A DNA stretch of 51,340 bases. It comes from Candidatus Scalindua sp. (lineage in GTDB: Bacteria; Planctomycetota; Brocadiia; Brocadiales; Scalinduaceae). Positions 46,598 to 51,340 of this stretch are shown here, piece after piece. Location of the stretch: the NCBI GenBank assembly GCA_021776915.1, contig JAIQZU010000075.1, forward strand, positions 1 through 51,340, written 5' to 3'. Below the pieces are notes generated by a model, which saw nothing but the letters and a program-made list of their open reading frames with translations, made no database searches and was not told the origin of the DNA. The position numbers and the translations under genes were made by a program. How positions within the stretch are numbered: the stretch's first letter is position 1; every line of letters begins with the position of its first letter.

Positions 46598-47983
46598 ATG
46601 AGTAAATTGAAGGAAAACTCAAATCTTGAACTGAAAAACGGGGCCAGGATTGCAGTCTTAGGTGGCGGCCCTGCAGGCTCATTCTTCAGCATTTTTGCCC
46701 TCAAATTGGCAAAGCAAATTGGCAAAGACATTGATCTGACTATTTTCGAACAAAAAAGCTTTTTAAATGAAGGACCTTCTAGCTGTAATATGTGTGCGGG
46801 AGTTGTTTCAGAGTCTCTTGTACAATTATTGGCAATAGAGGGGATTATTCTAAAACCACCTATACTTCAACGTGCAATTGATACCTACAATTTCCAAACA
46901 ATTAGTGGAGACGTACTTCTAAACAGTCCCAGTCTACAAAGGGGAATTGCCACTGTTTATAGAGGTGGAGGCCCAGTTAATAAATCAGCTTCAGAAACAA
47001 ACGGAGATGACACACATAAGAAAATAAGCTTCGATGACTTCCTAATCGATTGTGCTAAAAAGGAAGGAGCTAAAGTTGTAAACATAAGAATTGACAAAAT
47101 AGAACTAAATAATGACAAACCTGAAATATTTTCAAAGGGGGAGAAACTATTTGATGCCGATCTTGTGGTAGGTGGCTGTGGAATAAATGCTACAACCGCA
47201 AAGATGTTTGAAGGGCTTGGAATCGGATACACACACCCTTCTGTAATCAAGGCATTCCAGTCAGAAATACACCTAGGCAAAACAAATGTATTGACAAGGT
47301 TTGGTAATGCCATACATATTTTCCTTATCAACCAACCCGATGTAAAATTTGCAGCCATAACGCCAAAAGGCTCTTATGTAACTGTTAGTATGCTCGGCAA
47401 GGACATAACCAAACAATCTGTAGTAGACTTTCTAAGCAATCCTTTGGTCAAGAATAAATTCCCTGATTCATGGAGTACTCCCGATGCTTTCTGTCGTTGT
47501 GTACCGAAAATAAATGTGGGTGCCGCCAGGCATCCTTTTGCAGATAGAATCGTAATGATTGGAGATGCGAGTTCAGCACGTTTATACAAAGATGGAATTG
47601 GTTCTGCTTATATGACTGCAAAGGCTGCGGCAAATACTGCTATCCTCTATGGTATAAGTGATACAGATTTTCATAAACATTATTATCCAACGTGTAAAGC
47701 AATAAACAGGGACAACTTTTTTGGGAGCTTAATGTTCGCAGTTACAGATACGGTTAATAAGACTCCAATCATTCGTGAGTCACTATTAAGACTATTAAGA
47801 AATGAACAAAAACATCCTGAATCAGGTTACAAATGCAGTACAGTATTGTGGGATATGTTTACGGGCAATGAACGATATACAGATATTTTTGTACGAGCAA
47901 TTGACCCCAGGCTGTTACTAACATTTCTAATTAACATATTTAGCATCATTTTTATTCGGTTTAAGACTATATGGAGACAATAA
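46598..47983 (+). CDS. Geranylgeranyl reductase-like FAD-dependent oxidoreductase
   Basis: This 461-residue flavoprotein has AVLGGGPAGSFFSIFAL (FAD site, about 18-34), a CNMCAGVVSESL motif, and the late FADRIVMIGDASSARLYKDGIGSAYMTAKAA (the GD motif binding the FAD ribityl). This order fits the geranylgeranyl reductase family, which hydrogenates isoprenoid or other double bonds. A C-terminal hydrophobic stretch (about 440-455) may anchor it to the membrane. The substrate is unknown. The cNMP-binding gene starts 1 base after its stop, so they are linked. Confidence 0.8.
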   Translation: MSKLKENSNLELKNGARIAVLGGGPAGSFFSIFALKLAKQIGKDIDLTIFEQKSFLNEGPSSCNMCAGVVSESLVQLLAIEGIILKPPILQRAIDTYNFQTISGDVLLNSPSLQRGIATVYRGGGPVNKSASETNGDDTHKKISFDDFLIDCAKKEGAKVVNIRIDKIELNNDKPEIFSKGEKLFDADLVVGGCGINATTAKMFEGLGIGYTHPSVIKAFQSEIHLGKTNVLTRFGNAIHIFLINQPDVKFAAITPKGSYVTVSMLGKDITKQSVVDFLSNPLVKNKFPDSWSTPDAFCRCVPKINVGAARHPFADRIVMIGDASSARLYKDGIGSAYMTAKAAANTAILYGISDTDFHKHYYPTCKAINRDNFFGSLMFAVTDTVNKTPIIRESLLRLLRNEQKHPESGYKCSTVLWDMFTGNERYTDIFVRAIDPRLLLTFLINIFSIIFIRFKTIWRQ

Positions 47984-47984
47984 A

Positions 47985-48395
47985 ATGAAGGATGAAGAAA
48001 GTTCTTTAGGAAAGGATTACAAAGATGGAAGCATTATCTTCAAAGAAAACTCGGCTGGCAAGGAAATGTATATCATCATATCAGGAAAGGTTAAGATAAT
48101 GAAGGAAAAGGGTCCGGTAGAAACCATACTTGCAACTCTGGATGAAGGAGATTTCTTCGGAGAGATGTCACTGTTTGACAACTACCCGCGTTCTGCCACA
48201 GCAATGGCTTCAGGAGATGTTAAGCTTCTTGAAATAAACCAGAAGAATTTCCTGAAAAAAATCAGCAAAGATCCCAGTTTAGCATTCAGGATACTTGAAA
48301 AAATGAGTCAGCGAATCAGGTTAACGGACGAAAAGATACTAAACCATATATTTGAAATGCAAAATATAGCTAAAAATCCTTTTGTCTTTACATAA
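47985..48395 (+). CDS. Cyclic nucleotide-binding domain protein (136 aa)
   Basis: A single cNMP-binding (CAP-type) domain fills the protein. The phosphate-binding cassette FFGEMSLFDNYPRSATAMA holds the conserved Glu and Arg that contact the nucleotide. There is no DNA-binding domain, so it is not a CRP-type activator on its own. It sits directly after the FAD reductase, within a few hundred bases of the TPR-pseudokinase gene. It may sense cAMP or c-di-nucleotides and act through a partner. Confidence 0.88.
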   Translation: MKDEESSLGKDYKDGSIIFKENSAGKEMYIIISGKVKIMKEKGPVETILATLDEGDFFGEMSLFDNYPRSATAMASGDVKLLEINQKNFLKKISKDPSLAFRILEKMSQRIRLTDEKILNHIFEMQNIAKNPFVFT

Positions 48396-48556: not shown

Positions 48557-50941
48557 ATGTTAAAGTCAAATCGTTATCATACAAATATTAATGAGCTTAT
48601 ATCATTAAATAACCTTGCGGTTAAATACTACAAAGAAAAGAATATACAAAAAGCTTATAAAGTCTGCAGAAAAATCTACGAATTGGAACCTGCTCCGGAT
48701 ATTCTAAAACAAAGTATTAATCTGGGCATAGAACACATGCGTCACCACATGATTTTAGGTGAAATTTATTATAAAAATGGTAATTATCCAGAAGCTCAGA
48801 AAATACTAAACAGCCTGAAATCCCTTGGTAAGCATTTCTCAGACAAATATATTTTCTTAGCAAAAATACATTTAAAAAATGATAATTACACAAAGGCACT
48901 TCTTGAATACGAAGAAATGACCAAAGAATGTCCTCAACGCTTTAAGTCGATATTGAACGGATTATTAGATATTATTAACCAATATCCTTTTGTTGAAAGA
49001 TCTTATGAGCTACTACATAATTTGTACAAAAATAGAGGAAAAGAAGATTCATTGATTCCTGAATTTGAACGTAAAGTCAAAGAAGATGAACACAACAGGC
49101 AATCCCTTCTTGTTACGCTTGAACATCTTTATTACCTTTTGGGACAAAATACCCAGGCTATTCCACTCCTGATTAAACATCAGGAGAGATACTCTAATGA
49201 TGCTAAGCCCTTCTACCTCTTAGGAAATATTTATCTGGAATCAGGCAAATATTCAGAAGCGATTATTCAATATAATCAAGTAATCAAATTAGACCCCTCC
49301 AAAAAGACATATATTATCTCATCAATAGAAAGAATGCCTGACTACAAAAATGCGGCTAACGATCTTATTAACTACCTTGTAAATCTTTATTTTGAAGAAA
49401 ATAAACTTGCGCAAGCTGAGGAGACGCTTGATCATCTTCTAAAAACTAAACCAGATATTGTTAATTACCAGAAGAAAATGGAACAGGTACTTCTTAAGAT
49501 AATTAAGAATTCGCTACTCAGTAACCTACTGGAATTCTGCATATCGAAGATCGAAAAGCTGATAAGGCTCAGGCCTGAAAACACAAGATACAGGGACAAA
49601 CTACAGGAAGTACTAAAACTGAATATTAGTAAAAAAGTCCCGGAATATGAAAAAAGATTGAGTTCTATCGAACTTCATGACAATGTTTCAGAAGCAATCA
49701 AAAAGGACGTAAAGATTTTCTCTACTGAACCTGATGATGTAAACAAAACTCGTTTTGATTTAGCAATGCTTTATATTAATGCTGGTACTAACGAAGAGCG
49801 TGCCATTTCACTTCTTCAAAAAGTATCTAAGTCAAACTCCGGCAAGAAAGTCGAAGCGCTTCTACAGGTAGGTTTAAATTTTCTCGCCAAAGGTTACAAT
49901 GATATTGCTTTTGATAATTTCAACAATATTCTTTCTCTATATATACCAGATAATGAAAAACTGCAATATTTATACAAAATTGCAATTGCCTGTGAGAAAA
50001 AGAATTTACACAATAAAGCAAAGTTCTTTTATGGCAAAATCCTTTCTATAGATTTACAGTATAAGGATGTGCCAGAACGTCTGAAAAAGATATCTGTTTT
50101 AACAAGCTCAGCAGCAAGTGAAGCTTTAATGACAAATATAAATCAAAAATTCGAAAATATTGAAAAGATAGGCGAGGGAAACATTTGGGTTTTTTACAAA
50201 GCTGTAGACAAATTACTCAAACGTAAAGTCGTTATTACTATAATCAAGGAGGACTTCAGGTATAACCCTGTGGCAATTGATCGTTTTATTATGGAGACAC
50301 AGCATCTCAGCGAATCACAGCATAATGGTATAATCAAAGTATATGACGTCAATATCGACATACTTCTCTATATAGTTATGGAACATATCGATGGTGAAAG
50401 TCTCCGGTCTATCGAAAAGAAAAGGTCATTTAGTTTGACAGAAGTTTTAAAAATTGCTATAGATACCTGTGATGCGATTAAAAGTGCTCATAAGCATGGG
50501 GTCATTCATAGAGACATAAGACCAGACAATATAAGGTTGACTGTAGATAACACTGTAAAAATTTCTGCTTTTGGGCTGGCACACATCACTAAAGCCCCAC
50601 AGTCAAATAATACAAAGCAGACTGCCGAAATGCCTTTTTATAAGTCACCGGAACAAATCAGAGGAGTGGATGAAGAAATAGATGAAAGAAGCGATATTTA
50701 TTCACTGGGAATCACACTTTATGAATTGCTTGTTGGACATTTACCTTTTCATGAAGGAGATATTGCATATCAGCACATAAATGAACCACCAAAATCCCTG
50801 AGTAAAGAAAATCCGGAGATACCAAGATGGTTAGACCAAATAGTACTGAAATGTTTGAAAAAGAGCCCTTCTGACCGTTACCAGGAAATTGGCCATCTGC
50901 AGAAAGTACTGGAGTCACATTCAAAATTTTACATAGATTAA
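48557..50941 (+). CDS. TPR-repeat protein with a degenerate Ser/Thr kinase domain (pseudokinase)
   Basis: This 794-residue protein has TPR-like helical repeats over about residues 15-510 and a protein-kinase fold over about 530-790. The kinase keeps HRD (651-653), the catalytic-loop Asn658, and the YSLG helix with Asp713. It lacks two essentials: the beta-3 lysine is Thr561 (KVVITIIK) and DFG is AFG (Ala671-Phe-Gly673). The glycine loop is also weak (GEGNIW, with Trp544). Catalysis is therefore unlikely, and it probably serves as a scaffold or regulator. Plain TPR-kinase fusions are common in planctomycetes. Confidence 0.85.
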   Translation: MLKSNRYHTNINELISLNNLAVKYYKEKNIQKAYKVCRKIYELEPAPDILKQSINLGIEHMRHHMILGEIYYKNGNYPEAQKILNSLKSLGKHFSDKYIFLAKIHLKNDNYTKALLEYEEMTKECPQRFKSILNGLLDIINQYPFVERSYELLHNLYKNRGKEDSLIPEFERKVKEDEHNRQSLLVTLEHLYYLLGQNTQAIPLLIKHQERYSNDAKPFYLLGNIYLESGKYSEAIIQYNQVIKLDPSKKTYIISSIERMPDYKNAANDLINYLVNLYFEENKLAQAEETLDHLLKTKPDIVNYQKKMEQVLLKIIKNSLLSNLLEFCISKIEKLIRLRPENTRYRDKLQEVLKLNISKKVPEYEKRLSSIELHDNVSEAIKKDVKIFSTEPDDVNKTRFDLAMLYINAGTNEERAISLLQKVSKSNSGKKVEALLQVGLNFLAKGYNDIAFDNFNNILSLYIPDNEKLQYLYKIAIACEKKNLHNKAKFFYGKILSIDLQYKDVPERLKKISVLTSSAASEALMTNINQKFENIEKIGEGNIWVFYKAVDKLLKRKVVITIIKEDFRYNPVAIDRFIMETQHLSESQHNGIIKVYDVNIDILLYIVMEHIDGESLRSIEKKRSFSLTEVLKIAIDTCDAIKSAHKHGVIHRDIRPDNIRLTVDNTVKISAFGLAHITKAPQSNNTKQTAEMPFYKSPEQIRGVDEEIDERSDIYSLGITLYELLVGHLPFHEGDIAYQHINEPPKSLSKENPEIPRWLDQIVLKCLKKSPSDRYQEIGHLQKVLESHSKFYID

Positions 50942-51058: not shown

Positions 51059-51340
51059 TTATTGATTGTTAGCAGATTTCTCTATCTTATATTTCTTTAT
51101 ACGATATCTTAAATTGTCACGACTAAGCCCTAATAAACGTGCAGCCATACTCTGATTCCACGAACACTCAAGCAGTGTTTTGCAAATCACATCTTTTTCC
51201 ATTTCATTAATAGATTTAGTTTTTTCAGGTGCTGCAATCTGTTTATTAAATATACCTTTCTTCCTATATTGAATTTCATCCGGCAGGTCATCGATACGAA
51301 TAACATCATCTTCCGCCAAAACTACAGCCCTTTCAACAAT
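51059..51340 (-). CDS. C-terminal part of a sigma-54 activator (Fis-type HTH), cut by the window edge
   Basis: The frame is open to the window edge and begins IVERAVVLAEDDVIRIDDLP, the usual end of the NtrC-type AAA+ domain. It closes with a helix-turn-helix (WNQSMAARLLGLSRDNLRYRIKKYKIEK). Only the 3' end is present. The upstream AAA+ and any receiver domain lie outside the window. Confidence 0.85.
   Translation of the reverse strand: MVERAVVLAEDDVIRIDDLPDEIQYRKKGIFNKQIAAPEKTKSINEMEKDVICKTLLECSWNQSMAARLLGLSRDNLRYRIKKYKIEKSANNQ

Follow-up and report, generated by a model that had tools for sequence, protein, structure and literature searches.

Why would an anammox bacterium keep a long, uninterrupted gene for a kinase-fold protein whose beta-3 lysine and DFG aspartate are both gone? 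The question is raised by one gene in a 51,340-nt stretch of Candidatus Scalindua sp. (GenBank assembly GCA_021776915.1, contig JAIQZU010000075.1), here called the window. A preliminary description had proposed that selection may retain the protein as a scaffold. Our analysis points the same way: the product is likely a non-catalytic TPR-scaffold pseudokinase of Scalindua-like anammox bacteria, in which the kinase-fold domain would serve as a docking or allosteric module. Scaffolding is a candidate function, proposed from sequence and model.

Domains and lost motifs

The gene and its changed positions are listed below. Residue states refer to 21 aligned sequences, namely seven loci of the genus and 14 relatives; PKA equivalences (A70, L173) were assigned by motif counting.

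48557..50941, + strand: TPR-pseudokinase gene (ORF, 794 aa; orthologue set of seven loci)
48587..50149, + strand: helical TPR array, residues ~11–531 (Pfam TPR matches; AlphaFold2 model)
50150..50884, + strand: protein-kinase-fold domain, residues 532–776 (PF00069; AlphaFold2 pLDDT 86)
50186..50188, + strand: Trp544 replacing the third glycine of the nucleotide loop (W in 7/7 pseudokinases, G in 14/14 relatives)
50231..50233, + strand: Val559 replacing the VAIK Ala (PKA A70, adenine contact/C-spine; V in 7/7, A in 14/14)
50237..50239, + strand: Thr561 replacing the beta-3 Lys, codon ACT (T/M/N/K among the seven)
50513..50521, + strand: HRD Asp653 (kept) to Arg655 (catalytic-loop Lys replaced; 21-sequence motif table)
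50534..50536, + strand: Arg660 replacing Met/Leu/Ile (PKA L173, C-spine adenine floor; R in 7/7)
50567..50569, + strand: Ala671 replacing the DFG Asp, codon GCT (A/G in 7/7, D in 14/14)

The ORF starts with ATG and contains no internal stops, in agreement with the first account of an intact, long gene. The N-terminal part matched several TPR families in Pfam, and residues 11–531 were all-helical in the AlphaFold2 model, with a pLDDT mostly >85. The kinase fold was just as clear as had been stated: PF00069 matched residues 532–776 with 142 bits against a curated cut-off of 31.7 (E 2.6e-41), and the model gave a full-length fold. By sequence, the best solved relatives were PknB, StkP and PknA; by structure, the modelled domain matched PknA, Stk1 and PknB with Z of about 30–31 (AF2/VIA). 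The placement of the array relative to the kinase domain is uncertain in the model (pTM 0.51).

Both previously reported losses, Lys to Thr561 and Asp to Ala671, lie where they had been placed (VVIT(561) and AFG(671–673)), as does the retained HRD (HRDIRPDN at 651–658). Four further losses had been overlooked: Gly to Trp544, Ala to Val559 (VAIK), Lys to Arg655 (HRDxK) and Met/Leu to Arg660, the last of these two residues past the metal-binding Asn658. The residues kept are the alpha-C Glu580, HRD His/Arg/Asp 651–653, Asn658, Phe672-Gly673, Pro-Glu 698–699, Asp709 and Arg774. With Thr561 and Ala671, the protein falls outside the competent Hanks-type Ser/Thr kinases, Asp653 and Asn658 being kept. 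A WNK-style relocated lysine was rejected: the glycine loop holds no lysine, and K548, being the usual lysine of YKA, is not a clear substitute.

Five Pkinase matches above the cut-off were found in the window genome: two TPR-pseudokinases, a 462-residue kinase on contig C62 and two short proteins on C81. The C62 kinase was the one seen with the full VALK/HRDIKPSN/DFG set; of the C81 pair, motifs were read for the protein other than L105, which has HCDIKPGH/DYE. The window pseudokinase has the second-best-scoring kinase domain in the genome, and automatic annotation would therefore label it active. The best score belongs to a near copy on contig C26 (1–7563), which shares 86% protein and 85% DNA identity with the window over ~6.6 kb of synteny but has no sigma-54 activator gene downstream. 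One end of C26 is identical to an end of C64 over 141 bases, which would fit a branch in the assembly graph; the second copy may be a paralogue or a co-binned relative.

Further paralogues (L016, L041 2510–4678, L042 1766–3970, L043 and L044) carry the same TPR array (~25–28% identity) with the kinase replaced. Their C-terminal domain resembles a class III cyclase by eye, but with a PF00211 score of 12.5 bits, below the cut-off, we call it only cyclase-like.

Distribution, descent and selection

Carriers were confined to one Scalindua-like genus of ocean and groundwater (anammox, Brocadiales), with full-length copies in six of 13 genomes (G000, G002, G004, G005, G007 and G008) and two loci in G000. 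As MAGs are incomplete, absence from the other genomes of the genus is not proof. A gene present in only 6/13 genomes is not essential there. The locus has named relatives in MAGs of Ca. Scalindua, in one MAG from Hainich groundwater and in one from a RIFCSP aquifer; among plasmid records, no full-length copy was found. The full-length TPR array and the kinase homology (36–86% identity) place the protein in the Brocadiales TPR-kinase family.

The two catalytic losses behaved differently across the genus. In the order window, C26, G004, G005, G002, G007 and G008, the beta-3 position reads T, T, T, K, K, N and M, and the DFG Asp position reads A, A, A, G, G, G and G. R replaces the catalytic-loop Lys in six loci and G replaces it in the seventh, against K in all 14 relatives, which also have the beta-3 Lys and the DFG Asp throughout. 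The proposed check on conservation among orthologues thus came out positive for loss of the DFG Asp and negative for Thr561, which is found only in the subgroup to which the window belongs, two genomes keeping Lys. With a catalytic residue lost and the DFG Asp absent from 7/7 loci versus present in 14/14 relatives, the proteins fall among bacterial STK pseudokinases in the general sense. Asp653 and Asn658 are retained in six of the seven loci; G007 has also lost the HRD Asp, the catalytic-loop Arg and the Asn, and its motifs are the most degraded.

Outside the genus, the closest gene is that of Ca. Scalindua rubra, in which GEGGMG, VAIK, HRDIKPDN and DFG are all intact. The motifs are also intact in 12 of 13 more distant relatives, and one lacks the HRD Asp. 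This one is a b-type TPR-kinase of another genus (G059, L059 7863–10274) reading HRN for HRD, apparently a separate loss of the catalytic Asp. The preliminary description had held that intact orthologues would indicate a recent loss or an error. Intact genes do exist, in S. rubra and in other families, but the loss is common to the whole genus clade. A sequencing error, chance or a recent loss in a single genome was rejected, as the seven loci that show the pattern come from several independent assemblies.

In the kinase tree, the seven pseudokinases were monophyletic (100/100) with S. rubra as the intact sister. In the TPR tree, G008 joined S. rubra (91/84). On fixed-topology trees, the pseudokinase stem had a length of 0.315 for the kinase part versus 0.000 for the TPR part, meaning that the kinase domain changed much on the stem branch; a further cause of the zero value is that the TPR tree places G008 with S. 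rubra and not with the other pseudokinases. Identity in 60-residue windows showed G008 nearest to S. rubra at ~131–430 and mostly nearest to the pseudokinases from ~431. Together with the tree discordance, this suggests that the gene is probably mosaic, so the statement of a single loss is valid for the C-terminal part: on the sequences compared, kinase loss there is of single origin. The domain discordance of G008 (L034 11639–13981) against L006 suggests recombination among TPR-kinase genes.

The dN/dS of the kinase domain (Nei–Gojobori) was 0.14–0.28 among pseudokinases versus 0.07–0.19 among active relatives, showing that the domain is under purifying selection. Across all 21 sequences, 32 kinase columns were invariant, including H651, F672, G673, P698, E699, D709 and R774. 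The proposal that a catalytically impaired domain is kept by selection is supported by both results. We also counted newly fixed residues, defined as identical in all seven loci and never seen in the 14 relatives: the 256 kinase positions contained eight of these and the 496 TPR positions one (Fisher p 0.001; the seven sequences are a small sample, are not independent and make about four lineages), and the short linker added two. Of the kinase eight, three (W544, V559 and R660) lie in the nucleotide pocket, a modest enrichment (p 0.026; the pocket list was chosen by us by PKA analogy, and the sequences are related). In G007, the kinase domain evolves faster than the TPRs, which counts against a constrained pseudokinase.

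A plausible course would be as follows. An active TPR-Ser/Thr kinase may have lost phosphotransfer once, on the branch leading to the genus. Both the DFG Asp and the catalytic-loop Lys would have been lost, with the adenine pocket rebuilt by Trp544, Val559 and Arg660. With the chemistry gone, the beta-3 Lys and the remaining glycines of the loop would have drifted lineage by lineage, while selection maintained the kinase fold, its C-lobe core, the alpha-C Glu and Phe-Gly in the DFG motif. By analogy with known pseudokinases, phosphorylation would be absent (PMC12599244, PMC4718504). The TPR array would gather partners, and the kinase-fold domain would dock or act allosterically, perhaps switched by an occupant of the pocket. 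Candidate partners are the canonical C62 kinase of the genome or a cyclic-nucleotide component.

Gene neighbours and rival explanations

The neighbouring genes in the window are:

46598..47983, + strand: FAD protein, geranylgeranyl-reductase-related, with a hydrophobic C-terminus (TIGR02032 E 7e-11, below the family cut-off)
47985..48395, + strand: stand-alone cNMP-binding domain protein, 136 aa, with an FGE...PRSATA pocket motif (PF00027 E 8.6e-24)
51059..51340, − strand: GAF/sigma-54-activator gene, 3' end, cut by the contig end (79% identity to the L030 protein, which has PF00158, GAF and Fis HTH domains)

The flavoprotein and cNMP-binding genes lie directly upstream of the pseudokinase in six of the seven loci and are themselves preceded by rfbB-like and rfbC-like genes; most loci have genes for a sigma-54 activator and NfeD downstream. 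The pair also occurs without the kinase in G009, in S. rubra (C168, another contig), in G053 and in G033. It is kept across Brocadiales (window 46598–48395; L098, L099, L100 and L101), and L101 has a response-regulator cyclase gene ahead of it. We regard the pair as a putative cyclic-nucleotide-linked redox module. In G002, an insert of ~160 bases (L031 2545–2833), absent from the close relative G005, separates the cNMP gene from the pseudokinase and may be a small mobile repeat.

Active a-type TPR-kinases of Brocadiaceae, Anammoxibacter and a KSB1 MAG overlap (by 4 bases) or adjoin a gene for a GAF-class III cyclase-PilZ protein. Such pairs were seen at L050 7884–11992, L051 7884–11989, L053 4888–9011, L055 4354–8437 and L060 7794–12394, with overlapping frames in four loci and adjacent ones in Anammoxibacter. 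In G054 and G055, cNMP-binding and AI-2E transporter genes also lie upstream. No GAF-cyclase-PilZ gene was found beside L054, the window-type loci, the b-type members or S. rubra; the arrangement marks most a-type members and not the whole family.

These neighbours bear on a signalling set, which the preliminary description had considered. As a cyclic-nucleotide module, the cNMP protein encoded upstream would bind the pseudokinase and relay cAMP or cGMP like a regulatory subunit. Its upstream position in 6/7 loci fits, as do the kinase-cyclase pairs of active relatives, two Brocadiaceae loci that also have a cNMP-binding gene upstream, and five class III cyclases encoded in the window genome, none of them at the pseudokinase locus. 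Against it, the pair is found order-wide without a TPR-kinase and is missing beside the G008 pseudokinase; as it occurs more widely than the pseudokinase, its presence next to it is weak evidence of joint function. In the window, a gap of 161 bp separates the pseudokinase from the cNMP gene and includes an 11/12 promoter-like match, but the site is not conserved and such matches are not evidence; no + strand terminator was found between the two genes. We consider this specific module distinctly improbable. Since a GAF-cyclase-PilZ gene comes immediately after the active TPR-kinase gene in relatives, a cyclic-nucleotide link is plausible, and some link to the pseudokinase is possible. The signalling set as first proposed therefore has only partial support.

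The same residues that disable the kinase could also have made a different binding site. ATP or another anionic ligand might be bound metal-free through Arg655 and Arg660, maybe with weak or different catalysis. Pseudokinases without the Lys or the DFG Asp sometimes retain ATP binding or catalysis (PMC4718504; PMC12599244), and metal-free nucleotide binding or altered catalysis was proposed for DLHK pseudokinases and ULK4. The genus motifs VVIT / HRDIRPDN / A-or-G-FG are nearly the DLHK signature AVLT / HrdlrpaS / GFG (PMC12599244), and R660 is invariant in 7/7 loci and R655 present in 6/7. However, the adenine site is probably narrower with Trp544 and Val559 in place, the loop glycines G539 and G541 vary in three of four lineages, and G007 lacks the HRD Asp, the Arg and the Asn. 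We consider metal-free binding possible but rather unlikely. Less probable still is a reading in which the rebuilt pocket (Trp544, Val559, Arg655 and Arg660) forms a newly made ligand site that may take a cyclic nucleotide or a nucleotide without metal, the protein being a sensor that replaced an active kinase whose gene had shared an operon with a cyclase gene. A decaying gene, its activity lost and its kinase domain drifting toward loss, would explain the patchy presence (6/13 genomes) as well as the degraded motifs and long kinase branch of G007. It is largely refuted by open full-length frames in 7/7 loci, a dN/dS far below 1 and an invariant core combined with newly fixed residues, and we give it very little weight. 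The non-catalytic scaffold is the reading we prefer.

Comparison with known systems

No paper on this TPR-pseudokinase protein was found in the literature. To our knowledge, conserved bacterial pseudokinase families are few, and the job is known for almost none. Among the solved kinases, PknB, StkP and PknA are the closest to the window domain in sequence and structure, but they are active, membrane-anchored and without a TPR array. EssB/YukC and MviN likewise use bacterial STK-fold domains without phosphotransfer; they differ in being membrane proteins of unrelated architecture with all three motifs degraded (PMC12599244). The bacterial pseudokinase review names no pseudokinase linked to a TPR array (PMC12599244).

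The closest residue pattern is that of the DLHK family (K to T, HRD with a loop Arg, GFG), known from the P. aeruginosa pseudokinase Q9I0B5 (Table 1), whose catalytic-loop Arg was proposed to hold phosphates (PMC12599244). The window protein shares the beta-3 Lys-to-Thr change and the HRD with loop Arg; it reads AFG where DLHK has GFG, and GFG occurs in four of the seven genus loci. Unlike DLHK proteins, it has no helicase or nuclease domain and keeps Asn658. The likeness looks convergent, because the window kinase nests among TPR-kinases with an intact sister: in trees without DLHK sequences, the kinase part grouped with the intact S. rubra TPR-kinase (99/96). This placement favours convergence over DLHK membership by descent, and the resemblance suggests that the same route was taken twice. 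The shared signature is also why metal-free ligand binding stays a candidate.

The nearest known systems are the active Brocadiales TPR-Ser/Thr kinases (S. rubra BSI-1 contig MAYW01000023, Brocadiaceae a- and b-type, Anammoxibacter, one KSB1 and one Nitrospinota MAG). They have the same full-length TPR array and C-terminal kinase (36–60% identity) but differ in their intact Lys, DFG Asp, loop glycines and VAIK Ala and in their gene neighbours. As an intact sister, stepwise losses and newly fixed pocket residues are all readable within one small clade, the order of the change from enzyme to pseudokinase can be worked out here.
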